DNA from: Lagopus muta | Lineage: Eukaryota; Chordata; Aves; Galliformes; Phasianidae | Reading direction: 5' to 3' | NCBI RefSeq assembly: GCF_023343835.1 | Contig: NC_064467.1 | Coordinates: forward strand, 124,001-188,000 | DNA: 64,000 nucleotides | Shown here: piece after piece, positions 1 through 64,000 of the stretch | Numbering within the stretch: the first letter of the stretch is position 1 | How the letters are laid out: each line of letters starts with the position of its first letter | Translations under genes and position numbers: made by a program | Notes under the pieces: model-generated | The model's database searches: none | Seen by the model: the letters and a program-made list of their open reading frames with translations, nothing else | Told to the model about the DNA's origin: nothing

Positions 1-3000
1 TTATTTTCACAGAAATCCCTGTTTTTCACCTTAAATATCCCTTATTTTCATAGAAATCCCTGTTTTTCCCCTAAAATATCCCTTATTTTCATCGAAATCC
101 CTGTTTTTAACCTTAAATATCCCTTATTTTCATAGAAATCCCTGTTTTTCCCCTTAAATATCCCTTATTTTCATAGAAATCCCTGTTTTTCACCTTAAAT
201 ATCCCTTATTTTCATAGAAATCCCTGTTTTTCACCTTAAATATCCCTTATTTTCATAGAAATCCCTGTTTTTCACCTTAAATATCACTTATTTTCATAGA
301 AATCCCTGTTTTTAACCTTAAATATCCCTTATTTTCCCAGAAATCCCTGTTTTTAACCTTAAATATCCCTTATTTTCATAGAAATCCCTGTTTTTAACCT
401 TAAATATCCCTTATTTTCCCAGAAATCCCTGTTTTTCACCTTAAATATCCCTTATTTTCCCAGAATTCCCTGTTTTTCCCCTTAAATATCCCTTATTTTC
501 CCAGAAATCCCTGTTTTTAACCTTAAATATCCCTTATTTTCAAAGAAATCCCTGTTTTTCCCTTAAATATCCCTTATTTTCATAGAAATCCCTGTTTTTC
601 ACCTTAAATATCCCTTATTTTCCCAGAAATCCCTGTTTTTCACCTTAAATATCCCTTATTTTCCCAGAAATCCCTGTTTTTCCCCTTAAATATCCCTTAT
701 TTTCATAGAAATCCCTGTTTTTCCCCTTAAATATCCCTTATTTTCATAGAAATCCCTGTTTTTCACCTTAAATATCCCTTATTTTCCCAGAAATCCCTGT
801 TTTTCCCCTTAAATATCCCTTATTTTCCCAGAAATCCCTGTTTTTCCCCTTAAATATCCCTTATTTTCCCAGAAATCCCTGTTTTTATCCTTAAATATCC
901 CTTATTTTCCCAGAATTCCCTGTTTTTCCCCTTAAATATCCCTTATTTTCATAGAAATCCCTGTTTTTCCCCTTAAATATCCCTTATTTTCATAGAAATC
1001 CCTGTTTTTCCCCTTAAATATCCCTTATTTTCATAGAAATCCCTGTTTTTAACCTTAAATATCCCTTATTTTCATAGAAATCCCTGTTTTTCACCTTAAA
1101 TATCCCTTATTTTCATAGAAATCCCTGTTTTTCATCTTAAATATCCCTTATTTTCATAGAAATCCCTGTTTTTCCCCTTAAATATCCCTTATTTTCCCAG
1201 AAATCCCTGTTTTTCCCCTTAAACATCCCTTATTTTCATAGAAATCCCTGTTTTTCCCCTTAAATATCCCTTATTTTCATAGAAATCCCTGTTTTTCCCC
1301 TTAAATATCCCTTATTTTCATAGAAATCCCTGTTTTTAACCTTAAATATCCCTTATTTTCATAGAAATCCCTGTTTTTCCCCTCAAATATCCCTTATTTT
1401 CCCAGAAATCCCTGTTTTTCACCTTAAATATCCCTTATTTTCCCAGAAATCCCTGTTTTTAACCTTAAATATCCCTTATTTTCATAGAAATCCCTGTTTT
1501 TCCCCTTAAATATCCCTTATTTTCATAGAAATCCCTGTTTTTCACCTTAAATATCCCTTATTTTCATAGAAATCCCTGTTTTTCCCCTTAAATATCCCTT
1601 ATTTTCATAGAAATCCCTGTTTTTCCCCTTAAATATCCCTTATTTTCATAGAAATCCCTGTTTTTAACCTTAAATATCCCTTATTTTCATAGAAATCCCT
1701 GTTTTCCACTTTAAATATCCCTTATTTTCACAGAAATCCCTGTTTTTCACCTAAAATATCGCTTATTTTCATAGAAATACCTGTTTTTAACCTTAAATAT
1801 CCCTTATTTTCCCAGAAATCCCTGTTTTTCCCCTAAAATATCCCTTATTTTCATAGAAATCCCTGTTTTTCCCCTTAAATATCCCTTATTTTCCCAGAAA
1901 TCCCTGTTTTTCACCTTAAATATCCCTTATTTTCCCAGAAATCCCTCTTTTTCCCCTTAAATATCCCTTATTTTCATAGAAATCCCTGTTTTTCCCCTTA
2001 AATATCCCTTATTTTCCCAGAAATCCCTGTTTTTCACCTTAAATATCCCTTATTTTCATAGAAATCCCTGTTTTTCCCCTTAAATATCCCTTATTTTCAC
2101 AGAAATCCCTGTTTTTAACCTTAAATATCCCTTATTTTCATAGAAATCCCTGTTTTTAACCTTAAATATCCCTTATTTTCCCAGAAATCCCTGTTTTTCC
2201 CCTTAAATATCCCTTATTTTCATAGAAATCCCTGTTTTTCACCTTAAATATCCCTTATTTTCATAGAAATCCCTGTTTTTCACCTTAAATATCCCTTATT
2301 TTCATAGAAATCCCTGTTTTTAACCTTAAATATCCCTTATTTTCATAGAAATCCCTGTTTTTCACCTTAAATATCCCTTATTTTCATAGAAATCCCTGTT
2401 TTTCACCTTAAATATCCCTTATTTTCCCAGAAATCCCTGTTTTTCCCCTTAAATATCCCTTATTTTCATAGAAATCCCTGTTTTTCACCTTAAATATCCC
2501 TTATTTTCATAGAAATTCCTGTTTTTCCCCTTAAATATCCCTTATTTTCATAGAAATCCCTGTTTTTCCCCTTAAATATCCCTTATTTTCCCAGAAATCC
2601 CTGTTTTTAACCTTAAATATCCCTTATTTTCATAGAAATCCCTGATTTTCACCTTAAATATCCCTTATTTTCATAGAAATCCCTGTTTTTCCCCTTAAAT
2701 ATCCCTTATTTGCATAGAAATCCCTGTTTTTCCCCTTAAATATCCCTTATTTTCATAGAAATCCCTGTTTTTAACCTTAAATATCCCTTATTTTCATAGA
2801 AATCCCTGTTTTTCCCCTTAAATATCCCTTATTTTCATAGAAATCCCTGTTTTTAACCTTAAATATCCCTTATTTTCATAGAAATCCCTGTTTTTCCCCT
2901 TAAATATCCCTTATTTTCATAGAAATCCCTGTTTTTCCCCTTAAATATCCCTTATTTTCATAGAAATCCCTGTTTTTCCCCTTAAATATCCCTTATTTTC

Positions 3001-6000
3001 CCAGAAATCCCTGTTTTTAACCTTAAATATCCCTTATTTTCCCAGAAATCCCTGTTTTTCCCCTTAAATATCCCTTATTTTCATAGAAATCCCTGTTTTT
3101 CCCCTTAAATATCCCTTATTTTCATAGAAATCCCTGTTTTTCCCCTTAAATATCCCTTATTTTCATAGAAATCCCTGTTTTTAACCTTAAATATCCCTTA
3201 TTTTCACAGAAATCCCTGTTTTTCACCTTAAATATCCCTTATTTTCACAGAAATCCCTGTTTTTCCCCTTAAATATCCCTTATTTTCATAGAAATCCCTG
3301 TTTTTCCCCTTAAATATCCCTTATTTTCATAGAAATCCCTGTTTTTCACCTTAAATATCCCTTATTTTCATAGAAATCCCTGTTTTTCCCCTTAAATATC
3401 CCTTATTTTCCCAGAAATCCCTGTTTTTAACCTTAAATATCCCTTATTTTCATAGAAATCCCTGATTTTCACCTTAAATATCCCTTATTTTCATAGAAAT
3501 CCCTGTTTTTCCCCTTAAATATCCCTTATTTGCATAGAAATCCCTGTTTTTCCCCTTAAATATCCCTTATTTTCACAGAAATCCCTGTTTTTCCCCTTAA
3601 ATATCCCTTATTTTCATAGAAATCCCCGTTTTTCCCCTTAAATATCCCTTATTTTCACAGAAATCCCTGTTTTTCCCCTTAAATATCCCTTATTTTCATA
3701 GAAATCCCTGTTTTTCACCTTAAATATCCCTTATTTTCATAGAAATCCCTGTTTTTTCCCCTTAAATATCCCTTATTTTCATAGAAATCCCTGTTTTTTC
3801 CCCTTAAATATCCCTTATTTTCATAGAAATCCCTGTTTTTCACCTTAAATATCCCTTATTTTCATAGAAATCCCTGTTTTTCCCCTTAAATTTCCCTTAT
3901 TTTCCCAGAAATCCCTGTTTTTCACCTTAAATATCCCTTATTTTCATAGAAATCCCTGTTTTTAACCTTAAATATCCCTTATTTTCATAGAAATCCCTGT
4001 TTTTCACCTTAAATATCCCTTATTTTCATAGAAATCCCTGTTTTTCCCCTTAAATATCCCTTATTTTCATAGAAATCCCTGTTTTTCCCCTTAAATATCC
4101 CTTATTTTCATAGAAATCCCTGTTTTTAACCTTAAATATCCCTTATTTTCATAGAAATCCCTGTTTTTCCCCTTAAATATCCCTTATTTTCATAGAAATC
4201 CCTGTTTTTCCCCTTAAATATCCCTTATTTTCATAGAAATCCCTGTTTTTAACCTTAAATATCCCTTATTTTCATAGAAATCCCTGTTTTTCCCCTTAAA
4301 TATCCCTTATTTTCCCAGAAATCCCTGTTTTTAACCTTAAATATCCCTTATTTTCATCGAAATCCCTCTTTTTCCCCTTAAATATCCCTTATTTTCATAG
4401 AAATCCCTGTTTTTCCCCTTAAATATCCCTTATTTTCCCAGAAATCCCTGTTTTTCACCTTAAATATCCCTTATTTTCATAGAAATCCCTGTTTTTCCCC
4501 TTAAATATCCCTTATTTTCACAGAAATCCCTGTTTTTAACCTTAAATATCCCTTATTTTCATAGAAATCCCTGTTTTTAACCTTAAATATCTCTTATTTT
4601 CCCAGAAATCCCTGTTTTTCCCCTTAAATATCCCTTATTTTCATAGAAATCCCTGTTTTTAACCTTAAATATCCCTTATTTTCATAGAAATCCCTGTTTT
4701 TCACCTTAAATATCCCTTATTTTCATAGAAATCCCTGTTTTTCACCTTAAATATCCCTTATTTTCATAGAAATCCCTGTTTTTAACCTTAAATATCCCTT
4801 ATTTTCCCAGAAATCCCTGTTTTTCCCCTTAAATATCCCTTATTTTCATAGAAATCCCTGTTTTTCACCTTAAATATCCCTTATTTTCCCAGAAATCCCT
4901 GTTTTTCCCCTTAAACATCCCTTATTTTCATAGAAATCCCTGTTTTTCACCTTAAATATCCCTTATTTTCATAGAAATCCCTGTTTTTCACCTTAAATAT
5001 CCCTTATTTTCATAGAAATCCCTGTTTTTCACCTTAAATATCCCTTATTTTCCCAGAAATCCCTGTTTTTCCCCTTAAATATCCCTTATTTTCATAGAAA
5101 TCCCTGTTTTTCCCCTTAAATATCCCTTATTTTCATAGAAATCCCTGTTTTTCCCCTTAAATATCCCTTATTTTCATAGAAATCCCTGTTTTTAACCTTA
5201 AATATCCCTTATTTTCCCAGAAATCCCTGTTTTTCACCTTAAATATCCCTTATTTTCATAGAAATCCCTGTTTTTCCCCTTAAATATCCCTTATTTTCAT
5301 AGAAATCCCTGTTTTTCACCTTAAATATCCCTTATTTTCCCAGAAATCCCTGTTTTTAACCTTAAATATCCCTTATTTTCATAGAAATCCCTGTTTTTCC
5401 CCTTAAATATCCCTTATTTTCATAGAAATCCCTGTTTTTCCCCTTAAATATCCCTTATTTTCATAGAAATCCCTGTTTTTCCCCCTAAATATCGCTTATT
5501 TTCATAGAAATCCCTGTTTTTCCCCTTAAATATCCCTTATTTTCATAGAAATCCCTGTTTTTCACCTTAAATATCCCTTATTCTCATAGAAATCCCTGTT
5601 TTTAACCTTAAATATCCCTTATTTTCATAGAAATCCCTGTTTTTCACCTTAAATATCCCTTATTTTCATAGAAATTCCTGTTTTTCCCCTTAAATATCCC
5701 TTATTTTCATAGAAATCCCTGTTTTTAACCTTAAATATCCCTTATTTTCATAGAAATCCCTGTTTTTCACCTTAAATATCCCTTATTTTCATAGAAATCC
5801 CTGTTTTTCACCTTAAATATCCCTTATTTTCATAGAAATCCCTGTTTTTCCCCTTAAATATCCCTTATTTTCATAGAAATCCCTGTTTTTCACCTTAAAT
5901 ATCCCTTATTTTCATAGAAATCCCTGTTTTTCACCTTAAATATCCCTTATTTTCATAGAAATCCCTGTTTTTCCCCTTAAATATCCCTTATTTTCATAGA

Positions 6001-9000
6001 AATCCCTGTTTTTCCCCTTAAATATCCCTTATTTTCCCAGAAATCCCTGTTTTTAACCTTAAATATCCCTTATTTTCATAGAAATCCCTGTTTTTAACCT
6101 TAAATATCCCTTATTTTCATAGAAATCCCTGTTTTTAACCTTAAATATCCCTTATTTTCCCAGAAATCCCTGTTTTTCACCTTAAATATCCCTTATTTTC
6201 ATAGAAATCCCTGTTTTTCCCCTTAAATATCCCTTATTTTCCCAGAAATCCCTGTTTTTCACCTTAAATATCCCTTATTTTCCCAGAAATCCCTGTTTTT
6301 CCCCTTAAATATCCCTTATTTTCACAGAAATCCCTGTTTTTCACCTTAAATATCCCTTATTTTCCCAGAAATCCCTGTTTTTCACCTTAAATATCCCTTA
6401 TTTTCCCAGAAATCCCTGTTTTTCCCCTTAAATATCCCTTATTTTCATAGAAATCCCTGTTTTTCCCCTTAAATATCCCTTATTTTCCCAGAAATCCCTG
6501 TTTTTAACCTTAAATATCCCTTATTTTCATAGAAATCCCTGTTTTCAACCTTAAATATCCCTTATTTTCATAGAAATCCCTGTTTTTCACCTTAAATATC
6601 CCTTATTTTCATAGAAATCCCTGTTTTTAACCTTAAATATCCCTTATTTTCATAGAAATCCCTGTTTTTCCCCTTAAATATCCCTTATTTTCCCAGAAAT
6701 CCCTGTTTTTAACCTTAAATATCCCTTATTTTCCCAGAAATCCCTGTTTTTCACCTTAAATATCCCTTATTTTCATAGAAATCCCTGTTTTTCCCCTTAA
6801 ATATCCCTTATTTTCATAGAAATCCCTGTTTTTTCCCCTTAAATATCCCTTATTTTCATAGAAATCCCTGTTTTTAACCTTAAATATCCCTTATTTTCAT
6901 AGAAATCCCTGTTTTTCCCCTTAAATATCGCTTATTTTCCCAGAAATCCCTGTTTTTCCCCTTAAATATCCCTTATTTTCATAGAAATCCCTGTTTTTAA
7001 CCTTAAATATCCCTTATTTTCATAGAAATCCCTGTTTTCCACTTTAAATATCCCTTATTTTCACAGAAATCCCTGTTTTTCACCTAAAATATCGCTTATT
7101 TTCATAGAAATACCTGTTTTTAACCTTAAATATCCCTTATTTTCCCAGAAATCCCTGTTTTTCCCCTAAAATATCCCTTATTTTCATAGAAATCCCTGTT
7201 TTTCCCCTTAAATATCCCTTATTTTCCCAGAAATCCCTGTTTTTCACCTTAAATATCCCTTATTTTCATCGAAATCCCTCTTTTTCCCCTTAAATATCCC
7301 TTATTTTCATAGAAATCCCTGTTTTTCCCCTTAAATATCCCTTATTTTCCCAGAAATCCCTGTTTTTCACCTTAAATATCCCTTATTTTCATAGAAATCC
7401 CTGTTTTTCCCCTTAAATATCCCTTATTTTCACAGAAATCCCTGTTTTTAACCTTAAATATCCCTTATTTTCATAGAAATCCCTGTTTTTAACCTTAAAT
7501 ATCCCTTATTTTCCCAGAAATCCCTGTTTTTTCCCCTTAAATATCCCTTATTTTCATAGAAATCCCTGTTTTTAACCTTAAATATCCCTTATTTTCATAG
7601 AAATCCCTGTTTTTTCCCCTTAAATATCCCTTATTTTCATAGAAATCCCTGTTTTTCACCTTAAATATCCCTTATTTTCATAGAAATCCCTGTTTTTCCC
7701 CTTAAATATCCCTTATTTTCATAGAAATCCCTGTTTTTCACCTTAAATATCCCTTATTTTCATAGAAATCCCTGTTTTTCCCCTTAAATATCCCTTATTT
7801 TCATAGAAATCCCTGTTTTTAACCTTAAATATCCCTTATTTTCATAGAAATCCCTGTTTTTCACCTTAAATATCCCTTATTTTCCCAGAAATCCCTGTTT
7901 TTAACCTTAAATATCCCTTATTTTCATTGAAATCCCTGTTTTTCACCTTAAATATCCCTTATTTTCATAGAAATCCCTGTTTTTAACCTTAAATATCCCT
8001 TATTTTCATAGAAATCCCTGTTTTTAACCTTAAATATCCCTTATTTTCCCAGAAATCCCTGTTTTTCACCTTAAATATCCCTTATTTTCATAGAAATCCC
8101 TGTTTTTTCCCCTTAAATATCCCTTATTTTCATGGAAATCCCTGTTTTTCACCTGAAATATCCCTTATTTTCCCAGAAATCCCTGTTTTTAACCTTAAAT
8201 ATCCCTTATTTTCATAGAAATCCCTGTTTTTCCCCTTAAATATCCCTTATTTTCATAGAAATCCCTGTTTTTCCCCCTAAATATCGCTTATTTTCATAGA
8301 AATCCCTGTTTTTTCCCCTTAAATATCCCTTATTTTCATAGAAATCCCTGTTTTTCACCTTAAATATCCCTTATTTTCATAGAAATCCCTGTTTTTCACC
8401 TTAAATATCCCTTATTTTCATAGAAATCCCTGTTTTTCACCTTAAATATCCCTTATTTTCATAGAAATTCCTGTTTTTTCCCCTTAAATATCCCTTATTT
8501 TCATAGAAATCCCTGTTTTTAACCTTAAATATCCCTTATTTTCATAGAAATCCCTGTTTTTCACCTTAAATATCCCTTATTTTCATAGAAATCCCTGTTT
8601 TTCCCCTTAAATATCCCTTATTTTCATAGAAATCCCTGTTTTTCCCCTTAAATATCCCTTATTTTCATAGAAATCCCTGTTTTTCACCTTAAATATCCCT
8701 TATTTTCATAGAAATCCCTGTTTTTCACCTTAAATATCCCTTATTTTCATAGAAATCCCTGTTTTTCCCCTTAAATATCCCTTATTTTCATAGAAATCCC
8801 TGTTTTTCCCCTTAAATATCCCTTATTTTCCCAGAAATCCCTGTTTTTAACCTTAAATATCCCTTATTTTCATTGAAATCCCTGTTTTTCACCTTAAATA
8901 TCCCTTATTTTCATAGAAATCCCTGTTTTTAACCTTAAATATCCCTTATTTTCATAGAAATCCCTGTTTTTAACCTTAAATATCCCTTATTTTCCCAGAA

Positions 9001-9990
9001 ATCCCTGTTTTTCACCTTAAATATCCCTTATTTTCATAGAAATCCCTGTTTTTCCCCTTAAATATCCCTTATTTTCATAGAAATCCCTGTTTTTCACCTT
9101 AAATATCCCTTATTTTCCCAGAAATCCCTGTTTTTCACCTTAAATATCCCTTATTTTCCCAGAAATCCCTGTTTTTCCCCTTAAATATCCCTTATTTTCA
9201 CAGAAATCCCTGTTTTTCCCCTTAAATATCCCTTATTTTCCCAGAAATCCCTGTTTTTAACCTTAAATATCCCTTATTTTCATAGAAATCCCTGTTTTCA
9301 ACCTTAAATATCCCTTATTTTCATAGAAATCCCTGTTTTTCACCTTAAATATCCCTTATTTTCATAGAAATCCCTGTTTTTCACCTTAAATATCCCTTAT
9401 TTTCATAGAAATCCCTGTTTTTCCCCTTAAATATCCCTTATTTTCCCAGAAATCCCTGTTTTTAACCTTAAATATCCCTTATTTTCATAGAAATCCCTGT
9501 TTTCAACCTTAAATATCCCTTATTTTCATAGAAATCCCTGTTTTTAACCTTAAATATCCCTTATTTTCATAGAAATCCCTGTTTTTCACCTTAAATATCC
9601 CTTATTTTCATAGAAATCCCTGTTTTTAACCTTAAATATCCCTTATTTTCATGGAAATCCCTGTTTTTCACCTTAAATATCCCTTATTTTCATAGAAATC
9701 CCTGTTTTTCCCCTTAAATATCCCTTATTTTCCCAGAAATCCCTGTTTTTCCCCTTAAATATCCCTTATTTTCATAGAAATCCCTGTTTTTAACCTTAAA
9801 TATCCCTTATTTTCCCAGAAATCCCTGTTTTTAACATTAAATATCCCTTATTTTCATAGAAATCCCTGTTTTTCACCTTAAATATCCCTTATTTTCATAG
9901 AAATCCCTGTTTTTCCCCTTAAATATCCCTTATTTTCATAGAAATCCCTGTTTTTAACCTTAAATATCCCTTATTTTCATAGAAATCCCT

Positions 9991-12900
9991 GTTATTCACG
10001 TTAAATATCGCTTATTTTCCCAGAAATCCCTGTTTTTCCCCTTAAATATCCCTTATTTTCATAGAAATCCCTGTTTTTCCCCTTAAATATCCCTTATTTT
10101 CATAGAATTCCCTGTTTTTCACCTTAAATATCCCTTATTTTCCCAGAAATCCCTGTTTTTCCCCTTAAATATCCCTTATTTTCATAGAAATCCCTGTTTT
10201 TAACCTTAAATATCCCTTATTTTCCCAGAAATCCCTTTTTTTAACCTTAAATATCCCTTATTTTCATAGAAATCCCTGTTTTTAACCTTAAATATCCCTT
10301 ATTTTCATAGAAATCCCTGTTTTTAACCTTAAATATCCCTTATTTTCATAGAAATCCCTGTTTTTAACCTTAAATATCCCTTATTTTCATAGAAATCCCT
10401 GTTTTTAACCTTAAATATCCCTTATTTTCACAGAAATCCCTGTTTTTCCCCTTAAATATCCCTTATTTTCCCAGAAATCCCTGTTTTTAACCTTAAATAT
10501 CCCTTATTTTCATAGAAATCCCTGTTTTCCACCTTAAATATCCCTTATTTTCCCAGAAATCCCTGTTTTTCACCTTAAATATCCCTTATTTTCATAGAAA
10601 TCCCTGTTTTTCCACTTAAATATCCTTTATTTTCATAGAAATCCCTGTTTTTCCCCTTAAATATCCCTTATTTTCATAGAAATGCCTGTTTTTAACCTTA
10701 AATATCCCTTATTTTCATAGAAATGCCTGTTTATAACCTTAAATATCCCTTATTTTCATAGAAATCCCTGTTTTTAACCTTAAATATCCCTTATTTTCAT
10801 AGAAATCCCTGTTTTTTCCCCTTAAATATCCCTTATTTTCATAGAAATCCCTGTTTTTAACCTTAAATATCCCTTATTTTCATGGAAATCCCTGTTTTTA
10901 ACCTTAAATATCCCTTAATGTCACAGAAATCCCTGTTTTTAACCTTAAATATCCCTTATTTTCCCAGAAATCCCTGTTTTTAACCTTAAATATCCCTTAT
11001 TTTCATAGAAATCCCTGTTTTTCCCCTTAAACATCCCTTATTTTCATAGAAATCCCTGTTTTTCCCCTTAAATATCGCTTATTTTCATAGAAATCCCTGT
11101 TTTTCCCCTTAAATATCCCTTATTTTCCCAGAAATCCCTGTTTTTAACCTTAAATATCCCTTATTTTCCCAGAAATCCCTGTTTTTCACCTTAAATATCC
11201 CTTATTTTCATAGAAATCCCTGTTTTTCCCCTTAAATATCCCTTATTTTCATAGAAATCCCTGTTTTTAACCTTAAATATCCCTTATTTTCATAGAAATC
11301 CCTGTTATTCACGTTAAATATCGCTTATTTTCCCAGAAATCCCTGTTTTTCCCCTTAAATATCCCTTATTTTCATAGAAATCCCTGTTTTTCCCCTTAAA
11401 TATCCCTTATTTTCATAGAATTCCCTGTTTTTCACCTTAAATATCCCTTATTTTCCCAGAAATCCCTGTTTTTCCCCTTAAATATCCCTTATTTTCATAG
11501 AAATCCCTGTTTTTCCCCTTAAATATCCCTTATTTTCCCAGAAATCCCTTTTTTTAACCTTAAATATCCCTTATTTTCATAGAAATCCCTGTTTTTAACC
11601 TTAAATATCCCTTATTTTCATAGAAATCCCTGTTTTTAACCTTAAATATCCCTTATTTTCATAGAAATCCCTGTTTTTAACCTTAAATATCCCTTATTTT
11701 CATAGAAATCCCTGTTTTTAACCTTAAATATCCCTTATTTTCACAGAAATCCCTGTTTTTCCCCTTAAATATCCCTTATTTTCCCAGAAATCCCTGTTTT
11801 TAACCTTAAATATCCCTTATTTTCATAGAAATCCCTGTTTTTCACCTTAAATATCCCTTATTTTCCCAGAAATCCCTGTTTTTCACCTTAAATATCCCTT
11901 ATTTTCATAGAAATCCCTGTTTTTCCACTTAAATATCCTTTATTTTCATAGAAATCCCTGTTTTTCCCCTTAAATATCCCTTATTTTCATAGAAATGCCT
12001 GTTTTTAACCTTAAATATCCCTTATTTTCATAGAAATGCCTGTTTATAACCTTAAATATCCCTTATTTTCATAGAAATCCCTGTTTTTAACCTTAAATAT
12101 CCCTTATTTTCATAGAAATCCCTGTTTTTCCCCTTAAATATCCCTTATTTTCATAGAAATCCCTGTTTTTAACCTTAAATATCCCTTATTTTCCCAGAAA
12201 TCCCTGTTTTTAACCTTAAATATCCCTTAACGTCACAGAAATCCCTGTTTTTAACCTTAAATATCCCTTATTTTCCCAGAAATCCCTGTTTTTAACCTTA
12301 AATATCCCTTATTTTCATAGAAATCCCTGTTTTTCCCCTTAAACATCCCTTATTTTCATAGAAATCCCTGTTTTTCCCCTTAAATATCGCTTATTTTCAT
12401 AGAAATCCCTGTTTTTCCCCTTAAATATCCCTTATTTTCCCAGAAATCCCTGTTTTTAACCTTAAATATCCCTTATTTTCCCAGAAATCCCTGTTTTTCA
12501 CCTTAAATATCCCTTATTTTCATAGAAATCCCTGTTTTTCCCCTTAAATATCCCTTATTTTCATAGAAATCCCTGTTTTTAACCTTAAATATCCCTTATT
12601 TTCATAGAAATCCCTGTTATTCACGTTAAATATCGCTTATTTTCCCAGAAATCCCTGTTTTTCCCCTTAAATATCCCTTATTTTCATAGAAATCCCTGTT
12701 TTTCCCCTTAAATATCCCTTATTTTCATAGAATTCCCTGTTTTTCACCTTAAATATCCCTTATTTTCCCAGAAATCCCTGTTTTTCCCCTTAAATATCCC
12801 TTATTTTCATAGAAATCCCTGTTTTTCACCTTAAATATCCCTTATTTTCATAGAAATCCCTGTTTTTAACCTTAAATATCCCTTATTTTCCCAGAAATCC

Positions 12901-13470
12901 CTTTTTTTAACCTTAAATATCCCTTATTTTCATAGAAATCCCTGTTTTTAACCTTAAATATCCCTTATTTTCATAGAAATCCCTGTTTTTAACCTTAAAT
13001 ATCCCTTATTTTCATAGAAATCCCTGTTTTTAACCTTAAATATCCCTTATTTTCATAGAAATCCCTGTTTTTAACCTTAAATATCCCTTATTTTCACAGA
13101 AATCCCTGTTTTTCCCCTTAAATATCCCTTATTTTCCCAGAAATCCCTGTTTTTAACCTTAAATATCCCTTATTTTCATAGAAATCCCTGTTTTTCACCT
13201 TAAATATCCCTTATTTTCCCAGAAATCCCTGTTTTTCACCTTAAATATCCCTTATTTTCATAGAAATCCCTGTTTTTCCACTTAAATATCCTTTATTTTC
13301 ATAGAAATCCCTGTTTTTCCCCTTAAATATCCCTTATTTTCATAGAAATGCCTGTTTTTAACCTTAAATATCCCTTATTTTCATAGAAATGCCTGTTTAT
13401 AACCTTAAATATCCCTTATTTTCATAGAAATCCCTGTTTTTAACCTTAAATATCCCTTATTTTCATAGAA
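9991..13470. repeat. 32-unit (1.31 kb) higher-order repeat, domain 1
   Basis: Rare variant units recur in the same order with a spacing of 32 monomers. The GTTATTCACG unit is at 9991, 11304 and 12616 (steps 1313 and 1312). The unit with TCCC followed by seven T is at 10231, 11544 and 12897 (the last step has one extra monomer). The unit with TGTCAC/CGTCAC in place of TTTTCAC is at 10919 and 12231. The third copy is truncated and gives way at 13471 to units led by an AAATACCTG variant. This shows local amplification of a 1.31 kb block inside the 41-bp array. Confidence 0.85.
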
Positions 13471-38600: not shown

Positions 38601-38779
38601 TCCCTTATTTTCATAGAAATCCCTGTTTTTCCCCTTAAATATCCCTTATTTTCATAGAAATCCCTGTTTTTCCCCTTAAATATCCCTTATTTTCATAGAA
38701 ATCCCTGTTTTTAACCTTAAATATCCCTTATTTTCCCAGAAATCCCTGTTTTTAACCTTAAATATCCCTTATTTTCATA

Positions 38780-49000: not shown

Positions 49001-52000
49001 CCCTGTTTTTCACCTTAAATATCCCTTATTTTCATAGAAATCCCTGTTTTTCCCCTTAAATATCCCTTATTTTCATAGAAATCCCTGTTTTTCACCTTAA
49101 ATATCCCTTATTTTCATAGAAATCCATGTTTTTCCCCTTAAATATCCCTTATTTTCATAGAAATCCCTGTTTTTAACCTTAAATATCCCTTATTTTCATA
49201 GAAATCCCTGTTTTTAACCTTAAATATCCCTTATTTTCATAGAAATCCCTGTTTTTCCTTAAATATCCCTTATTTTCATAGAAATCCCTGTTTTTAACCT
49301 TAAATATCCCTTATTTTCATAGAAATCCCTGTTTTTAACCTTAAATATCCCTTATTTTCCCAGAAATCCCTGTTTTTCACCTTAAATATCCCTTATTTTC
49401 ATAGAAATCCCGGTTTTTCCTCTTAAATATCCCTTATTTTCATAGAAATCCCTGTTTTTAACCTTAAATATCCCTTATTTTCATAGAAATCCCTGTTTTT
49501 CACCTTAAATATCCCTTATTTTCATAGAAATCCCTGTTTTTCACCTTAAATATCCCTTATTTTCCCAGAAATCCCTGTTTTTCACCTTAAATATCCCTTA
49601 TTTTCATAGAAATCCCTGTTTTTAACCTTAAATATCCCTTATTTTCATAGAAATCCCTGTTTTTCACCTTAAATATCCCTTATTTTCATAGAAATCCCTG
49701 TTTTTAACCTTAAATATCCCTTATTTTCCCAGAAATCCCTGTTTTTCCCCTTAAATATCCCTTATTTTCCCAGAAATCCCTGTTTTTCCCCTTAAATATC
49801 CCTTATTTTCATAGAAATCCCTGTTTTTCCCCTTAAATATCCCTTATTTTCATAGAAATCCCTGTTTTTCCCCTTAAATATCCCTTATTTTCATAGAAAT
49901 CCCTGTTTTTCCCCTTAAATATCCCTTATTTTCATAGAAATCCCTGTTTTTAACCTTAAATATCCCTTATTTTCCCAGAAATCCCTGTTTTTCACCTTAA
50001 ATATCCCTTATTTTCATAGAAATCCCGGTTTTTCCTCTTAAATATCCCTTATTTTCATAGAAATCCCTGTTTTTCCCCTTAAATATCCCTTATTTTCATA
50101 GAAATCCCTGTTTTTCACCTTAAATATCCCTTATTTTCATAGAAATCCCTGTTTTTCACCTTAAATATCCCTTATTTTCCCAGAAATCCCTGTTTTTCCC
50201 CTTAAATATCCCTTATTTTCATAGAAATCCCTGTTTTTAACCTTAAATATCCCTTATTTTCATAGAAATCCCTGTTTTTCACCTTAAATATCCCTTATTT
50301 TCATAGAAATCCCTGTTTTTCACCTTAAATATCCCTTATTTTCATAGAAATCCCTGTTTTTCACCTTAAATATCCCTTATTTTCATAGAAATCCCTGTTT
50401 TTCCCCTTAAATATCCCTTATTTTCATAGAAATCCCTGTTTTTCCCCTTAAATATCCCTTATTTTCCCAGAAATCCCTGTTTTTCCCCTTAAATATCCCT
50501 TATTTTCACAGAAATCCCTGTTTTTCCCCCTTAAATATCCCTTATTTTCATAGAAATCCCTGTTTTTCCCCTTAAATATCCCTTATTTTCATGGAAATCC
50601 CTGTTTTTAACCTTAAATATCCCTTATTTTCATAGAAATCCCTGTTTTTAACCTTAAATATCCCTTATTTTCCCAGAAATCCCTGTTTTTTCCCCTTAAA
50701 TATCCCTTATTTTCCCAGAAATCCCTGTTTTTCCCCTTAAATATCCCTTATTTTCATAGAAATCCCTGTTTTTTCCCCTTAAATATCCCTTATTTTCATA
50801 GAAATCCCTGTTTTTCCCCTTAAATATCCCTTATTTTCATTGAAATCCCTGTTTTTAACCTTAAATATCCCTTATTTTCATAGAAATCCCTGTTTTTCAC
50901 CTTAAATATCCCTTATTTTCATAGAAATCCCTGTTTTTCACCTTAAATATCCCTTATTTTCATAGAAATCCCTGTTTTTCCCCTTAAATATCCCTTATTT
51001 TCATAGAAATCCCTGTTTTTCCCCTTAAATATCCCTTATTTTCATAGAAATCCCTGTTTTTAACCTTAAATATCCCTTATTTTCATAGAAATCCCTGTTT
51101 TTCCCCTTAAATATCCCTTATTTTCATAGAAATCCCTGTTTTTCCCCTTAAATATCCCTTATTTTCATAGAAATCCCTGTTTTTAACCTTAAATATCCCT
51201 TATTTTCATAGAAATCCCTGTTTTTCCCCTTAAATATCCCTTATTTTCATAGAAATCCCTGTTTTTCACCTTAAATATCCCTTATTTTCCCAGAAATCCC
51301 TGTTTTTCACCTTAAATATCGCTTATTTTCATAGAAATCCCTGTTTTTAACCTTAAATATCCCTTATTTTCATAGAAATCCCTGTTTTTCCCCTTAAATA
51401 TCCCTTATTTTCATAGAAATCCCTGTTTTTCCCCTTAAATATCCCTTATTTTCATAGAAATCCCTGTTTTTCACCTTAAATATCCCTTATTTTCATAGAA
51501 ATCCCTGTTTTTCACCTTAAATATCCCTTATTTTCATAGAAATCCCTGTTTTTCCCCTTAAATATCCCTTATTTTCATAGAAATCCCTGTTTTTCCCCTT
51601 AAATATCCCTTATTTTCATAGAAATCCCTGTTTTTCACCTTAAATATCCCTTATTTTCCCAGAAATCCCTGTTTTTCCCCTTAAATATCCCTTATTTTCA
51701 TAGAAATCCCTGTTTTTCCCCTTAAATATCCCTTATTTTCACAGAAATCCCTGCTTTTCACCTTAAATATCCCTTATTTTCATAGAAATCCCTGTTTTTA
51801 ACCTTAAATATCCCTTATTTTCATAGAAATCCCTGTTTTTCCCCTTAAATATCCCTTATTTTCATAGAAATCCCTGTTTTTCACCTTAAATATCCCTTAT
51901 TTTCCCAGAAATCCCTGTTTTTCCCCTTAAATATCCCTTATTTTCATAGAAATCCCTGTTTTTCCCCTTAAATATCCCTTATTTTCATAGAAATCCCTGT

Positions 52001-53779
52001 TTTTAACCTTAAATATCCCTTATTTTCCCAGAAATCCCTGTTTTTCCCCTTAAATTTCCCTTATTTTCCCAGAAATCCCTGTTTTTCACCTTAAATATCC
52101 CTTATTTTCATAGAAATCCCTGTTTTTAACCTTAAATATCCCTTATTTTCATAGAAATCCCTGTTTTTCCCCTTAAATATCCCTTATTTTCATAGAAATC
52201 CCTGTTTTTAACCTTAAATATCCCTTATTTTCATAGAAATCCCTGTTTTTCCCCTTAAATATCCCTTATTTTCCCAGAAATCCCTGTTTTTCCCCTTAAA
52301 TATCCCTTATTTTCACAGAAATCCCTGTTTTTCCCCTTAAATATCCCTTATTTTCATAGAAATCCCTGTTTTTAACCTTAAATATCCCTTATTTTCATAG
52401 AAATCCCTGTTTTTCCCCTTAAATATCCCTTATTTTCATAGAAATCCCTGTTTTTCCCCTTAAATATCCCTTATTTTCATAGAAATCCCTGTTTTTCACC
52501 TTAAATATCCCTTATTTTCATAGAAATCCCTGTTTTTCCCCCTAAATATCCCTTATTTTCATAGAAATCCCTGTTTTTAACCTTAAATATCCCTTATTTT
52601 CCCAGAAATCCCTGTTTTTCCCCTTAAATATCCCTTATTTTCATAGAAATCCTTGTTTTTAACCTTAAATATCCCTTATTTTCATAGAAATCCTTGTTTT
52701 TAACCTTAAATATCCCTTATTTTCCCAGAAATCCCTGTTTTTAACCTTAAATATCCCTTATTTTCAGAGAAATCCCTGTTTTTCACCTTAAATATCCCTT
52801 ATTTTCATAGAAATCCCTGTTTTTCCCCTTAAATATCCCTTATTTTCATAGAAATCCCTGTTTTTCCCCTTAAATATCCCTTATTTTCCCAGAAATCCCT
52901 GTTTTTCCCCTTAAATATCCCTTATTTTCATAGAAATCCCTGTTTTTCACCTTAAATATCCCTTATTTTCATAGAAATGCCTGTTTTTAACCTTAAATAT
53001 CCCTTATTTTCCCAGAAATCCCTGTTTTTAACCTTAAATATCGCTTATTTTCATAGAAATCCCTGTTTTTAACCTTAAATATCCCTTATTTTCATAGAAA
53101 TCCCTGTTTTTAACCTTAAATATCCCTTATTTTCATAGAAATCCCTGTTTTTCCCCTTAAATATCCCTTATTTTCATAGAAATCCCTGTTTTTCCCCTTA
53201 AATATGCCTTATTTTCATAGAAATCCCTGTTTTTCACCTTAAATATCCCTTATTTTCATAGAAATCCCTGTTTTTAACCTTAAATATCCCTTATTTTCAT
53301 AGAAATCCCTGTTTTTCCCCTTAAATATCCCTTATTTTCATAGAAATCCCTGTTTTTCACCTTAAATATCCCTTATTTTCATAGAAATCCCTGTTTTTCC
53401 CCTTAAATATCCCTTATTTTCCCAGAAATCCCTGTTTTTAACCTTAAATATCGCTTATTTTCATAGAAATCCCTGTTTTTAACCTTAAATATCCCTTATT
53501 TTCATAGAAATCCCTGTTTTTTCCCCTTAAATATCCCTTATTTTCATAGAAATCCCTGTTTTTCCCCTTAAATATCCCTTATTTTCATAGAAATCCCTGT
53601 TTTTCCCCTTAAATATCCCTTATTTTCATAGAAATCCCTGTTTTTAACCTTAAATATCCCTTATTTTCATAGAAATCCCTGTTTTTCCCCTTAAATATCC
53701 CTTATTTTCATAGAAATCCCTGTTTTTCCCCTTAAATATCCCTTATTTTCATAGAAATCCCTGTTTTTCCCCTTAAATA

Positions 53780-56700
53780 TCCCTTATTTTCATTGAAATC
53801 CCTGTTTTTCTCCTTAAATATCCCTTATTTTCATAGAAATCCCTGTTTTTCCCCTTAAATATCCCTTATTTTCATAGAAATCCCTGTTTTTCCCCTTAAA
53901 TATCCCTTATTTTCATAGAAATCCCTGTTTTTCCCCTTAAATATCCCTTATTTTCATAGAAATCCCTGTTTTTAACCTTAAATATCCCTTATTTTCATAG
54001 AAATCCCTGTTTTTCTCCTTAAATATCCCTTATTTTCATAGAAATCCCTGTTTTTCCCCTTAAATATCCCTTATTTTCATTGAAATCCCTGTTTTTCACC
54101 TTAAATATCCCTTATTTTCATAGAAATCCCTGTTTTTCACCTTAAATATCCCTTATTTTCATTGAAATCCCTGTTTTTCTCCTTAAATATCCCTTATTTT
54201 CCCAGAAATCCCTGTTTTTCCCCTTAAATATCCCTTATTTTCATAGAAATCCCTGTTTTTCACCTTAAATATCCCTTATTTTCATAGAAATCCCTGTTTT
54301 TCACCTTAAATATCCCTTATTTTCATAGAAATCCCTGTTTTTAACCTTAAATATCCCTTATTTTCATAGAAATCCCTGTTTTTCCCCTTAAATATCCCTT
54401 ATTTTCATAGAAATCCCTGTTTTTCACCTTAAATATCCCTTATTTTCCCAGAAATCCCTGTTTTTCCCCTTAAATATCCCTTATTTTCATAGAAATCCCT
54501 GTTTTTCCCCTTAAATATCCCTTATTTTCACAGAAATCCCTGTTTTTAACCTTAAATATCCCTTATTTTCATAGAAATCCCTGTTTTTCCCCTTAAATAT
54601 CCCTTATTTTCCCAGAAATCCCTGTTTTTCCCCTTAAATATCCCTTATTTTCCCAGAAATCCCTGTTTTTAACCTTAAATATCCCTTATTTTCATAGAAA
54701 TCCCTGTTTTTCACCTTAAATATCCCTTATTTTCATAGAAATCCCTGTTTTTAACCTGAAATAACCCTTATTTTCATAGAAATCCCTGTTTTTCCCCTTA
54801 AATATCCCTTATTTTCATAGAAATCCCTGTTTTTCCCCTTAAATATCCCTTATTTTCATAGAAATCCCTGTTTTTAACCTTAAATATCCCTTATTTTCAT
54901 AGAAATCCCTGTTTTTCCCCTTAAATATCCCTTATTTTCATAGAAATCCCTGTTTTTAACCTTAAATATCCCTTATTTTCATAGAAATCCCTGTTTTTCC
55001 CCTTAAATATCCCTTATTTTCCCAGAAATCCCTGTTTTTCCCCTGAAATATCCCTTATTTTCATAGAAATCCCTGTTTTTCACCTTAAATATCCCTTATT
55101 TTCCCAGAAATCCCTGTTTTTCCCCTTAAATATCCCTTATTTTCATAGAAATCCCTGTTTTTCCCCTTAAATATCCCTTATTTTCCCAGAAATCCCTGTT
55201 TTTCCCCTGAAATATCCCTTATTTTCATAGAAATCCCTGTTTTTCCCCTTAAATATCCCTTATTTTCCCAGAAATCCCTGTTTTTAACCTTAAATATCCC
55301 TTATTTTCATAGAAATCCCTGTTTTTAACCTTAAATATCCCTTATTTTCATAGAAATCCCTGTTTTTAACCTTAAATATCCCTTATTTTCATAGAAATCC
55401 CTGTTTTTCCCCTTAAATATCCCTTATTTTCATAGAAATCCCTGTTTTTCCTCTTAAATATCCCTTATTTTCATAGAAATCCCTGTTTTTCCCCTTAAAT
55501 ATCCCTTATTTTCATAGAAATCCCTGTTTTTCCCCTTAAATATCCCTTATTTTCATAGAAATCCCTGTTTTTCCCCTTAAATATCCCTTATTTTCATAGA
55601 AATCCCTGTTTTTCCCCTTAAATATCCCTTATTTTCCCAGAAATCCCTGTTTTTCCCCTTAAATATCCCTTATTTTCATAGAAATCCCTGTTTTTAACCT
55701 TAAATATCCCTTATTTTCATAGAAATCCCTGTTTTTCCCCTTAAATATCCCTTATTTTCATAGAAATCCCTGTTTTTCCCCTTAAATATCCCTTATTTTC
55801 ATAGAAATCCCTGTTTTTCCCCTTAAATATCCCTTATTTTCATTGAAATCCCTGTTTTTCTCCTTAAATATCCCTTATTTTCATAGAAATCCCTGTTTTT
55901 CCCCTTAAATATCCCTTATTTTCATAGAAATCCCTGTTTTTCACCTTAAATATCCCTTATTTTCATAGAAATCCCTGTTTTTAACCTTAAATATCCCTTA
56001 TTTTCATAGAAATCCCTGTTTTTCTCCTTAAATATCCCTTATTTTCATAGAAATCCCTGTTTTTCCCCTTAAATATCCCTTATTTTCATAGAAATCCCTG
56101 TTTTTCACCTTAAATATCCCTTATTTTCATTGAAATCCCTGTTTTTCACCTTAAATATCCCTTATTTTCATAGAAATCCCTGTTTTTCACCTTAAATATC
56201 CCTTATTTTCATTGAAATCCCTGTTTTTCTCCTTAAATATCCCTTATTTTCCCAGAAATCCCTGTTTTTCCCCTTAAATATCCCTTATTTTCATAGAAAT
56301 CCCTGTTTTTCACCTTAAATATCCCTTATTTTCATAGAAATCCCTGTTTTTCACCTTAAATATCCCTTATTTTCATAGAAATCCCTGTTTTTAACCTTAA
56401 ATATCCCTTATTTTCATAGAAATCCCTGTTTTTCCCCTTAAATATCCCTTATTTTCATAGAAATCCCTGTTTTTCACCTTAAATATCCCTTATTTTCCCA
56501 GAAATCCCTGTTTTTCCCCTTAAATATCCCTTATTTTCATAGAAATCCCTGTTTTTCCCCTTAAATATCCCTTATTTTCACAGAAATCCCTGTTTTTAAC
56601 CTTAAATATCCCTTATTTTCATAGAAATCCCTGTTTTTCCCCTTAAATATCCCTTATTTTCATAGAAATCCCTGTTTTTCACCTTAAATATCCCTTATTT

Positions 56701-57200
56701 TCATAGAAATCCCTGTTTTTTCCCCTTAAATATCCCTTATTTTCCCAGAAATCCCTGTTTTTCCCCTTAAATATCCCTTATTTTCCCAGAAATCCCTGTT
56801 TTTAACCTTAAATATCCCTTATTTTCATAGAAATCCCTGTTTTTCACCTTAAATATCCCTTATTTTCATAGAAATCCCTGTTTTTAACCTGAAATAACCC
56901 TTATTTTCATAGAAATCCCTGTTTTTCCCCTTAAATATCCCTTATTTTCATAGAAATCCCTGTTTTTCCCCTTAAATATCCCTTATTTTCATAGAAATCC
57001 CTGTTTTTTAACCTTAAATATCCCTTATTTTCATAGAAATCCCTGTTTTTCCCCTTAAATATCCCTTATTTTCATAGAAATCCCTGTTTTTAACCTTAAA
57101 TATCCCTTATTTTCATAGAAATCCCTGTTTTTCCCCTTAAATATCCCTTATTTTCCCAGAAATCCCTGTTTTTCCCCTGAAATATCCCTTATTTTCATAG
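53780..57200. repeat. Two copies of a ~2.05-2.13 kb block of the 41-bp array
   Basis: CATTGAAATC followed by a CTCC-type unit occurs near 53791 and 54160 and again near 55841 and 56211, a displacement of 2050 bp (50 units). The rare AACCTGAAATAACCC unit occurs at 54751 and 56884, a displacement of 2133 bp (52 units). The shift between the two offsets implies that two monomers were gained in the right copy between those markers. These markers were not seen elsewhere in the array, so this is a local duplication independent of the 32-unit system. Outer limits are approximate. Confidence 0.7.
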
Positions 57201-58866
57201 AAATCCCTGTTTTTCACCTTAAATATCCCTTATTTTCCCAGAAATCCCTGTTTTTCCCCTTAAATATCCCTTATTTTCATAGAAATCCCTGTTTTTCCCC
57301 TTAAATATCCCTTATTTTCCCAGAAATCCCTGTTTTTCCCCTGAAATATCCCTTATTTTCATAGAAATCCCTGTTTTTCCCCTTAAATATCCCTTATTTT
57401 CCCAGAAATCCCTGTTTTTAACCTTAAATATCCCTTATTTTCATAGAAATCCCTGTTTTTTCCCCTTAAATATCCCTTATTTTCATAGAAATCCCTGTTT
57501 TTCCCCTTAAATATCCCTTATTTTCATAGAAATCCCTGTTTTTCCCCTTAAATATCCCTTATTTTCCCAGAAATCCCTGTTTTTTCCCCTTAAATATCCC
57601 TTATTTTCATAGAAATCCCTGTTTTTAACCTTAAATATCCCTTATTTTCATAGAAATCCCTGTTTTTCCCCTTAAATATCCCTTATTTTCATAGAAATCC
57701 CTGTTTTTCCCCTTAAATATCCCTTATTTTCATAGAAATCCCTGTTTTTCCCCTTAAATATCCCTTATTTTCATAGAAATCCCTGTTTTTCCCCTTAAAT
57801 ATCCCTTATTTTCCCAGAAATCCCTGTTTTTCCCCTTAAATATCCCTTATTTTCATAGAAATCCCTGTTTTTCCCCTTAAATATCCCTTATTTTCATAGA
57901 AATCCCTGTTTTTCCCCTTAAATATCCCTTATTTTCATAGAAATCCCTGTTTTTCCCCTTAAATATCCCTTATTTTCATAGAAATCCCTGTTTTTCCCCT
58001 TAAATATCGCTTATTTTCCCAGAAATCCCTGTTTTTCACCTTAAATATCCCTTATTTTCATAGAAATCCCTGTTTTTCCCCTTAAATATCCCTTATTTTC
58101 CCAGAAATCCCTGTTTTTCACCTTAAATATCCCTTATTTTCATAGAAATCCCTGTTTTTCCCCTTAAATATCGCTTATTTTCCCAGAAATCCCTGTTTTT
58201 CCCCTTAAATATCCCTTATTTTCATAGAAATCCCTGTTTTTCCCCTTAAATATCCCTTATTTTCCCAGAAATCCCTGTTTTTCACCTTAAATATCCCTTA
58301 TTTTCATAGAAATCCCTGTTTTTCCCCTTAAATATCCCTTATTTTCATAGAAATCCCTGTTTTTCACCTTAAATATCCCTTATTTTCATAGAAATCCCTG
58401 TTTTTAACCTTAAATATCCCTTATTTTCCCAGAAATCCCTGTTTTTCACCTTAAATATCCCTTATTTTCATAGAAATCCCTGTTTTTCCCCTTAAATATC
58501 CCTTATTTTCATAGAAATCCCTGTTTTTCCCCTTAAATATCCCTTATTTTCATAGAAATCCCTGTTTTTCACCTTAAATATCCCTTATTTTCACAGAAAT
58601 CCCTGTTTTTCACCTTAAATATCCCTTATTTTCCCAGAAATCCCTGTTTTTCACCTTAAATATCCCTTATTTTCATAGAAATCCCTGTTTTTCCCCTTAA
58701 ATATCCCTTATTTTCCCAGAAATCCCTGTTTTTCACCTTAAATATCCCTTATTTTCATAGAAATCCCTGTTTTTCCCATTAAATATCCCTTATTTTCATA
58801 GAAATCCCTGTTTTTAACCTTAAATATCCCTTATTTTCATAGAAATCCCTGTTTTTAACCTTAAAT

Positions 58867-59995
58867 TTCCCCTATTTCCGTCCCAAAATCCCCATTTTTG
58901 ACCCAAAATTGCCATTTTTCCCCCAATTTCTGCCCCCAAAATCACCATTTTTGACCCAAAATTGACATTTTTATCCCAATTTGACCCAAAATCACCATTT
59001 TTCCCCAATTTCTGTCCCCAAATCACCGTTTTTGACCAAAAATCACCATTTTTATCCCAATTTGACACAAAAAAGCCATTTTTGACCCAAAAGTGACATT
59101 TTTCCTCAAGTCCTGACCCCAAAAATGTCATTTTTGACCCCAAAACGTCCATTTTTGTCCCAAAATTGTCATTTTTACCCCAATTTGACCCAAAATCACC
59201 ATTTCTACCCATATTTCTGCTCCAAAAATCACCATTTTTGACCCAAAATGACATTTTTACCCCAAACGGACCCAAAAATCACCATTTTTGATACAAAAAT
59301 GTCCATTTTTGACCCAAAATTGCCATTTTTAGCACCATTTCTGCCCCTAAATCCCCATTTTTGACCCAAAATTGCCATTTTTAGCACAATTTCAGCCCCA
59401 AAATCCCCATTTTTGACCCAAAATTGCCATTTTTAGCACCATTTCTGTCCAAAATCCCCATTTTTGACCCAAAATTGCCATTTTTAGCACCATTTCCGCC
59501 CCAAAATCACCATTTTTGACCCAAAATTGCCATTTTTAGCACCATTTCTACCCCAAAATCCCCATTTTTGACCCAAAATTGCCATTTTTCCCCCAATTTC
59601 TGCCCCAAAATCCCCATTTTTGACCCAAAATTGCCATTTTTACCCCAATTTCTGTCCCAAAATCCCCATTTTTGACCCCAAATTGCCATTTTTAGCACCA
59701 TTTCTGTCCCAAAATCACCATTTTTGACCCAAAATTGCCATTTTTCCCCCAATTTCTGCCCCCAAAATCCCCATTTTTGACCCAAAATTGCCATTTTTCC
59801 CCCAATTTCTGCCCCAAAATCCCCATTTTTGACCCAAAATTGCCATTTTTAGCACCATTTCTGCCCCAAAATCCCCATTTTTGACCCAAAATTGCCATTT
59901 TTAGCACCATTTTTGACCCAAAATCCCCATTTTTGACCCAAAATCCCCATTTTTGACCCCAAATTCCCCCCCCCCCCCCCCCAATTTGCCCAAAT
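58867..59995. repeat. 51-52 bp minisatellite of T5/A4 clusters
   Basis: After the 41-bp array degrades, the sequence becomes a degenerate repeat of CCCCATTTTTGACCCAAAAT, TGCCATTTTTAGCACCATTT, CTGCCCCAAAAT. CCCCATTTTT starts at 59353, 59405 and 59456, giving steps of 52 and 51 bp. The left part (58870-59280) is more diverged, with extra half-units. On the minus strand this is the kind of GGGGATTTTGGG / AAAAATGGC sequence common in introns of avian dot chromosomes (recollection). It lies within the intron downstream of the SUPT16H exon at 60029-60094. Minus-strand open frames rich in W, G, F, K and N across this stretch are translations of the repeat, not genes. Confidence 0.9.
59966..59982. 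repeat. 17-base C run
   Basis: A homopolymer of 17 C closes the 52-bp minisatellite, about 45 bp downstream (on the minus strand) of the donor of the exon at 60029-60094. On the SUPT16H sense strand it is G17, which could form G-quadruplex structure and is prone to sequencing and length error. Confidence 0.95.
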
Positions 59996-60028
59996 TCGCC
60001 CTTTTTTCGCCCCAAATTCGGCTCCGAC
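59983..60028. other. Short non-repeat start of the downstream SUPT16H intron
   Basis: Read on the minus strand, these 46 bp are the first intronic bases after the 66-nt exon. They contain two related AATTTGGG strings around an A-rich GCGAAAAAAGGGCG. The sequence does not resemble the expected acidic (Glu/Asp-rich) continuation of SPT16, which supports a splice donor at 60028-60027 rather than exon read-through. Confidence 0.6.
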
Positions 60029-60094
60029 CTTGAGGAAAATCCCGACGTTTTTCACCTTCTTCTTCACCGCCGTCAGCAGCACCGCGGGGCCGTC
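60029..60094 (-). CDS. SUPT16H: SUPT16H internal exon (FACT subunit SPT16), 22 codons
   Basis: On the minus strand this 66-nt exon begins GAC GGC CCC in phase 0 after CTGCAG (AG at 60096-60095) and ends CTC AAG before GT (60028-60027). It translates to DGPAVLLTAV, KKKVKNVG, IFLK. I recognise this as vertebrate SPT16, where the corresponding segment (from memory) is DGPATVLTSV followed by KKKVKNVGIFLK. SPT16 pairs with SSRP1 in the FACT histone chaperone, which handles H2A-H2B during transcription and replication in the nucleus. This piece ends the N-terminal aminopeptidase-like domain; the next residues should be an acidic run, which is absent here because the frame runs into repeat. Third positions are almost all G or C. 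The donor GTCGGA is weak but has G at +5. The acceptor lacks a pyrimidine tract. The minus-strand frame is also open into the flanking minisatellite, which is not evidence of coding there. Confidence 0.87.
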
Positions 60095-60096
60095 CT
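60095..60096 (-). other. 3' splice site of the 66-nt SUPT16H exon
   Basis: The AG of CTGCAG precedes GAC GGC CCC. The upstream sense sequence is minisatellite (GGGGCACTTGTGGGTCG), so no pyrimidine tract is visible within about 40 nt. Placement is fixed by protein homology on both sides and by frame. Confidence 0.75.

Positions 60097-61435: not shown

Positions 61436-64000
<2,565 letters not shown>

Follow-up and report, generated by a model that had tools for sequence, protein, structure and literature searches.

In the genome of the rock ptarmigan, Lagopus muta (assembly GCF_023343835.1), the gene SUPT16H carries an intron of 64,390 bp, 97% of which is a single array of a 41-bp satellite. 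SUPT16H encodes SPT16, a subunit of FACT that is essential in eukaryotes and acts as a histone chaperone, helping polymerase to pass nucleosomes. The DNA analyzed, hereafter the window, is a stretch of 64,000 nucleotides corresponding to positions 124001-188000 of contig NC_064467.1 (C43; 196,355 bp); coordinates are given in the window or, when prefixed, on a contig. On the dot chromosomes of chicken, intron "sequence stuttering" has been described, with the local origin of the repeats being stressed (Hron et al. 2026, PMC12954441). We consider it likely that a satellite of the CNM/TM type was seeded into such a stuttering intron of an essential gene, was amplified in place, and persists there as a passenger. 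The gene offers a clean natural test, away from both the Y chromosome and the germ line: can transcription and splicing of an essential vertebrate gene proceed through tens of kilobases of a satellite of centromere type? The case also suggests that, beyond stuttering local sequence, the repeat-filled introns of dot chromosomes can acquire a satellite found across the genome and multiply it.

The genome searched comprised 1,026,658,476 bases in 165 contigs. Three lysozyme matches in it share 90, 81 and 86% identity with hen lysozyme, and among PDB chains their joined peptide scored highest against turkey lysozyme, which points to a probable galliform other than chicken. The query for the gene was a working version of the full-length human SPT16 protein, which also supplied the residue numbering. 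All 19 matches obtained (E <= 10; 20 candidates scored) fell on C43, on the minus strand and in protein order. Exon borders were placed manually, guided by the human protein and the closest GT or AG, with the last exon being identified by eye, which gave 20 exons running from C43:195477 down to C43:53661, a span of 141,817 bp. Joined, they form 2,311 coding bases whose sole stop codon is terminal, and the peptide is identical to this human SPT16 sequence in 704 of 786 aligned columns (89.6%, 17 gaps), covering human residues 262-1047. The 19 introns are all GT-AG with compatible phases, a count that is partly produced by construction because the borders were hand-set. The two exons inside the window, exon 4 (61658..61755, minus strand, 32 protein letters) and exon 5 (60029..60094, minus strand, peptide DGPAVLLTAVKKKVKNVGIFLK), were identified by the SPT16 search and by comparison with PDB chains, where their joined peptide matched FACT subunit SPT16 (E 1.2e-18); the same 53-residue peptide had no match in Pfam. 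SUPT16H on C43 is intact from residue 262 onward and, as judged from these searches, apparently single-copy.

Intron 5 extends from C43:184028 to C43:119639 (its part inside the window is 1-60028), in phase 0 between a lysine and an asparagine codon, a position that lies approximately between K433 and N434 of human SPT16. Its donor reads AAG/GTCGGA, with the GT at 60028-60027, and its acceptor reads TTTTTTTCCCTCAG/AAT; the next exon, exon 6, lies left of the window on the minus strand at C43:119543-119638. The first 60 bases of the intron (59969..60028, minus strand) hold, besides the donor GTCGGA at 60028-60023, the greater part of a tract of 17 C (59966-59982). Tandem Repeats Finder (TRF) assigned 1..58877 of the window to the 41-bp array (1,435 copies with 94% matches; minus strand, that of the gene) and placed the whole array at C43:120345-182877 (62,533 bp). 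When the array was cut into monomers, it yielded 1,524 units with the consensus TTATTTTCATAGAAATCCCTGTTTTTCACCTTAAATATCCC and about 31% G+C, spaced by exactly 41 bp in 1,479 of 1,523 intervals and free of any insertion. The array has a single orientation, as no reverse-strand unit was found on C43 at up to 3 mismatches, and it begins and ends abruptly: at the left edge the mismatches of the best 41-bp match fall from 21 through 7 to 1, and at the right edge they rise from 2 to 18.

These results agree with an earlier note made from the letters of the window, which had described two minus-strand SPT16 exons followed, from the donor at 60028 to position 1, by almost nothing except tandem repeat, with about 1,435 satellite units, an intron of at least 60 kb, and no further SPT16 exon. 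The protein search indeed found no SPT16 match in 1-60028. To the left of the window, SPT16 continues on the same strand and in protein order through the exons of its acidic, middle and C-terminal parts as far as the stop codon. The earlier proposal that a satellite array, putatively of a heterochromatin type, is embedded in a housekeeping gene is supported at the level of the assembly.

The array is bordered on both sides by the same minisatellite. On the donor side, a repeat of about 52 bp occupies 58878..59968 (1,091 bp, minus strand; TRF 58882-59962), and on the acceptor side it occupies C43:119740-120344 (605 bp). Left and right flanks align by blastn at 74.5% over 581 columns (E 3.6e-101). 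A 35-mer of this minisatellite, searched genome-wide at up to 3 mismatches, gave 9 matches, all of them in intron 5, one to the left of the array and eight to the right, and exact copies of it occur on both sides, 63.5 kb apart. We interpret this arrangement to mean that a single intron of about 1.86 kb, made of minisatellite, survives as a remnant around the array.

The 41-bp family itself is not confined to this intron. A genome-wide search with the C43 41-mer (<= 3 mismatches) returned 32,904 matches, 14,817 forward and 18,087 reverse, and a reversed control returned 0. Only 1,413 of the 32,904 are on C43, so that, unlike the repeats of stuttering, the array is not local in its family. The intron 5 array is nevertheless a private subfamily: the exact C43 consensus has 206 copies in the genome, 201 of which are on C43, whereas a related unit ending in CGC has 3,193 exact copies, 11 of them on C43. 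The sampled arrays of C103, C135 and C4 all end the unit in CGC, and that of C43 ends it in CCC. Among the matches listed or sampled, the 41-mer was seen on two large contigs (C9 and C23), on C43 itself, and on small ones (C4, C103 and C135). The listed copies of the CGC-ending unit, which are the first of the total, span 2.2-35.6 kb of C4 (230 kb); on C9 (59.6 Mb) they begin at 16.9 kb and reach at least 97 kb. A 4-kb sample of the terminal C9 array (C9:16881-97319) shows a higher-order repeat of 2,945 bp at 99.9%, and this array is possibly a partly assembled centromere. Mean ungapped monomer identity within arrays is 0.937 on C43, 0.839 on C9, 0.847 on C4, 0.890 on C103 and 0.958 on C135.

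Acrocentric centromeres of chicken almost always carry the 41-bp CNM repeat, often as higher-order repeats of 26-98 units (Huang et al. 2023, PMC9974502), and CNM families share clusters of T3-5 and A3-5 that are 6-7 bp apart (Uno et al. 2019, PMC6435179). The unit TTATTTTCATAGAAATCCCTGTTTTTCACCTTAAATATCCC contains such T/A clusters in both orders, AAA-6-TTTTT and TTTTT-6-AAA. Together with its period, its presence on several chromosomes, the terminal arrays of C9 and C23, and the higher-order repeat of C9, this resembles the CNM/TM repeats (PMC9974502, PMC6435179), and position, period and motif suggest that the 41-bp family is probably centromeric. In contrast to the CNM/TM arrays described (PMC9974502), that of C43 is interstitial, lies in a gene, forms a private subfamily and lacks higher-order repeats; the likeness lies in period and motif. 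A non-centromeric CNM cluster has been reported on chicken chromosome 3 (PMC12470241). We also considered PO41, a 41-bp repeat of galliforms that is transcribed and occurs on the gene-bearing microchromosome 16 (PMC4301066, PMC3091757), and which the array resembles as a galliform 41-bp tandem repeat linked to genes; PO41 was rejected as its family on base composition, since it has 63% G+C (PMC3091757) versus about 31% in the array.

The simplest account of these data would be a single seeding event followed by amplification and homogenization in place. Intron 5 would originally have been a short stuttering intron consisting of minisatellite of local origin. Into it a fragment of the 41-bp satellite of CNM/TM type, present across the genome, would have been seeded, and this would then have expanded and been homogenized to its present 1,524 units, giving rise to the private subfamily. 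Most likely the array is no more than a passenger: RNA polymerase II is predicted to transcribe the entire 64-kb intron, whose weak donor would then be spliced to its strong acceptor on the far side of the array. We infer the origin of the seed elsewhere in the genome, the transcription and splicing across the array, and its passenger status from the assembled sequence.

Splice sites were scored with a working set of matrices, and the medians of the gene's own acceptors (n=20) and donors (n=19) served as thresholds. Not one of 4,547 AG sites on the sense strand of the array reached the acceptor median; in the antisense strand, 1,483 of 1,495 would. In intron 5 outside the array, one site scores at or above that median. 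The acceptor of intron 5 (score 7.9) is among the three strongest of 20. Because RNA of the array would be purine-rich and devoid of acceptor-like sites, it should offer no pseudo-exons. Decoy donors that lack acceptors should not define exons, and the orientation of the array is therefore the tolerable one; as the prior odds of either orientation are even, this represents consistency and no proof. RNA mapping with an intron limit such as 40 kb, a setting used in PMC9974502, would miss the intron 5 splice. Purging of poly(A) signals was considered and dropped. AATAAA and ATTAAA together occur 18 times on the sense strand of the array versus 631 in shuffles, and in the other 18 introns 2 times on the sense strand (shuffles 43) and 108 times on the antisense strand (shuffles 149). 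Several hexamers of identical composition, used as controls, are similarly low on the sense strand of those 18 introns (AAAATA 5, AAATAA 5, ATAAAA 2 and TAAAAA 7 versus AATAAA 2) and tandem units are not independent, so that the depletion was ascribed to strand composition.

The array can also be set beside other known situations. As in chicken stuttering (PMC12954441), each SUPT16H intron has its own tandem repeat, the exons are intact, TRF coverage is very high, and copies of an exon edge occur on C43; unlike in the chicken, where the repeats are local, intron 5 holds 62.5 kb of a genome-wide satellite, far exceeding the other 18 introns. Locality, the feature stressed for stuttering, is seen in the flanks of the array (9/9) and in the repeat of introns 10 and 11 (22/24) and is absent from the 41-bp array. 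SUPT16H, SPT16 and CNM do not occur in the main text of Hron et al. (PMC12954441). In Drosophila, the Y-linked fertility genes kl-3 and kl-5 have giant introns of satellite DNA, which makes up about 99% of the gene and has to be transcribed and then removed by splicing (PMC6508621, PMC11207136). Repeats dominate SUPT16H in a comparable manner (99.05% of intron bases; 2,311 coding bases in 141,817 bp), whereas the Drosophila introns are of megabase size, lie on the Y chromosome and are expressed in spermatocytes, and the present case is one intron of 64,390 bp in an essential gene of all cells. As far as our searches go, a 62.5-kb array of a genome-wide, probably centromeric satellite, present as a private subfamily in an essential and apparently single-copy gene, is new, repeat-filled introns as such being already known. 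Within the open-access articles searched, we found no work linking SUPT16H to microchromosomes, and the accessible portions of articles on the CNM repeat and introns report no such in-gene array.

Several observations weigh against the seeding of a centromeric satellite that then remained as a passenger. The array of C135 is more homogeneous than that of C43, so that homogeneity alone does not date the array, and the C43 array lacks the higher-order repeat found on C9. Of 40 samples of 300 bp, drawn 30 kb inward from each end of the 20 contigs C8-C27, 2 held the unit (C9 start and C23 end), and of 20 samples of 800 bp, one from each of C1-C20 at 3.0-3.8 kb, only that of C4 did so, three being all N; because so few sampled contig ends carry the 41-mer, the centromeric label is thin. 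With regard to splicing, acceptor-like sites in the other 18 introns show no strand preference (61 sense, 74 antisense), 372 of 997 GT sites on the sense strand of the array score at least as high as the median true donor, which makes mis-splicing possible, and the true intron 5 donor scores 0.25, which places it in the weakest four of 19. As for the gene itself, SPT16 residues 1-261 had no match in the whole-assembly search, an outcome that is no proof of their absence, and C43 stops 878 bp past the first recovered exon (195478-196355), in a G-rich repeat.

The earlier note had itself named an assembly join and a truncated gene copy as alternatives, and both are disfavored by the present data. 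Satellites are the usual place for misjoins, C43 is only 196 kb long, and the paper describing the ptarmigan assembly, which was assembled with hifiasm from PacBio HiFi reads plus Hi-C, states that some microchromosomes are likely still unresolved (PMC10320755). A misjoin of satellite and gene, or a badly mis-sized array, is nonetheless very unlikely, since SPT16 exons continue in order and in phase on both sides of the array and the private minisatellite borders it at either end. The sole N run in C43 (500 bp at 49194-49693) leaves the interval between exons 5 and 6 gap-free. Exact repeats within the array reach at most 1,721 bp, the longest coming from one local duplication of 1,763 bp, and none attains 2 kb; in the monomer analysis, no high-identity higher-order repeats were found in the array. 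Ungapped comparison of the array with itself at all offsets peaks at 99.35% for 2 kb, 95.6% for 5 kb and 94.5% for 10 kb, so that reads of usual HiFi length should be able to place the units. Being a private subfamily, the array is also not a stray piece of another array. Taken together, gap-free sequence, distinguishable units, the shared minisatellite and ordered exons make a truncated copy unlikely as well as a misjoin. The idea that C43 bears a relic while a working SUPT16H resides elsewhere could draw on the missing residues 1-261 and on the low scores of some splice sites. We regard it as highly improbable, given a frame that is open from residue 262 to the stop at 89.6% identity to the human sequence used, the confinement of all 19 full-length-query matches to C43 with no second copy found, the essential nature of SPT16, and a TTC5 neighbor that fits the gene block of human 14q11.2.

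The direction of spread might also have been the reverse, with the 41-bp satellite having been born among minisatellites of dot-chromosome introns and only later carried to centromeres. When aligned to the 41-mer and compared with shuffles, the right flank gave z 6.3 and the start of intron 19, in reverse, z 17.7, a likeness that is compatible with a local origin and speaks against seeding from elsewhere; in addition, the top repeat period is near a multiple of 10.4 bp in 13 of 19 introns. The left flank, however, gave z 1.0 and the other 17 introns sampled gave z <= 2.8, C43 carries just a small part of the family copies, the sampled arrays of C9 and C4 are more diverse than that of C43, and the edges of the array are sharp instead of graded. 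We hold this reverse route to be unlikely, while giving it more weight than the other alternatives. A function in place, for instance an influence on SUPT16H output via the time that transcription takes or via the chromatin there, would be in keeping with the acceptor-free orientation, though at even odds, and with reports that link FACT to centromere chromatin (PMC3447972, PMC4911930). Such a function seems very doubtful, because all recovered introns are repeat-filled, as instability of a dot chromosome would produce, the depletion of poly(A) signals is non-specific when compared with control hexamers, and the RNA fold of three sense units is ordinary (z 0.28). In fission yeast, SPT16 helps to keep CENP-A off transcribed chromatin (PMC3447972). 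It is conceivable, and in our estimation the least probable of the ideas considered, that the intron array is or was a centromere-competent domain of CNM type inside the SPT16 gene, where FACT-aided transcription would keep the centromere off and low FACT would close the array; if this were true, the supply of FACT would be coupled to the state of FACT's own gene. Seeding of a genome-wide satellite, with subsequent amplification in place as a passenger, is the reading that we favor over these.

The other introns of SUPT16H are filled with repeats as well. The 19 recovered introns total 139,506 bp, 99.05% of which is covered by TRF; the TRF calls extend over the whole of exon 7 and over 42 of 130 bases in exon 18 as well. 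The introns other than intron 5 range in length from 909 to 9,308 bp and are filled with different repeats. A repeat common to introns 10 and 11 had 24 genome matches, 22 of them on C43, which fits a local origin as in stuttering. In and beside the window, intron 4 (60095..61657, minus strand, 1,563 bp) is minisatellite with TRF periods of 11, 21, 43 and 96, and intron 3 (61756..64000; whole intron C43:185756-188022; minus strand) is minisatellite with TRF periods of 20, 38 and 77, which at 61909-64000 is a repeat rich in G runs of the type CATTAATTAGGGGGGGGTCC; exon 3 lies just beyond the window on the minus strand at C43:188023-188096. Repeats of long period were noted in intron 19 (C43:55713-60498; 862-bp unit x 5.5, 95%) and in intron 11 (C43:84786-88014; 381-bp unit x 8.5, 91%). 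The acceptors of introns 1, 3 and 11 end in ATTAG. The helical repeat of DNA is 10.4 bp, and the top-scoring repeat period (8-130 bp) of an intron lay within about 1 bp of a multiple of this value in the 13 introns mentioned above (C43:53771-195304), compared with about 21% of the integers from 8 to 130. A G-rich bias of the sense strand was also considered, with GC skew being positive in 14 of 19 introns, and was judged unconvincing.

C43 as a whole is a 196-kb scaffold, 95.5% of it tandem repeat, that is numbered among other small contigs, and it is probably a scaffold of a dot microchromosome. Besides SUPT16H, it holds a TTC5-like exon at about 9.8-10.1 kb on the plus strand, in which 68 residues match TTC5 in one stretch (E 1.9e-14); TTC5 is the best natural protein for this peptide, and engineered tetratricopeptide-repeat proteins outscore it through summed repeats. 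Further exons at about 32-43 kb presumably belong to an HNRNPC-like gene, a tentative name; the one peptide of this neighbor that was compared with PDB had no match. In human, SUPT16H, TTC5 and HNRNPC all lie in 14q11.2, which fits orthology. In an intron of the HNRNPC-like gene (C43:33699-36201), the exon edge occurs 15 times at up to 4 substitutions, the exon itself being counted, and a donor follows in the six copies that were printed (...GTAATTAA). This series of exon-edge copies looks like the exon stuttering of chicken.

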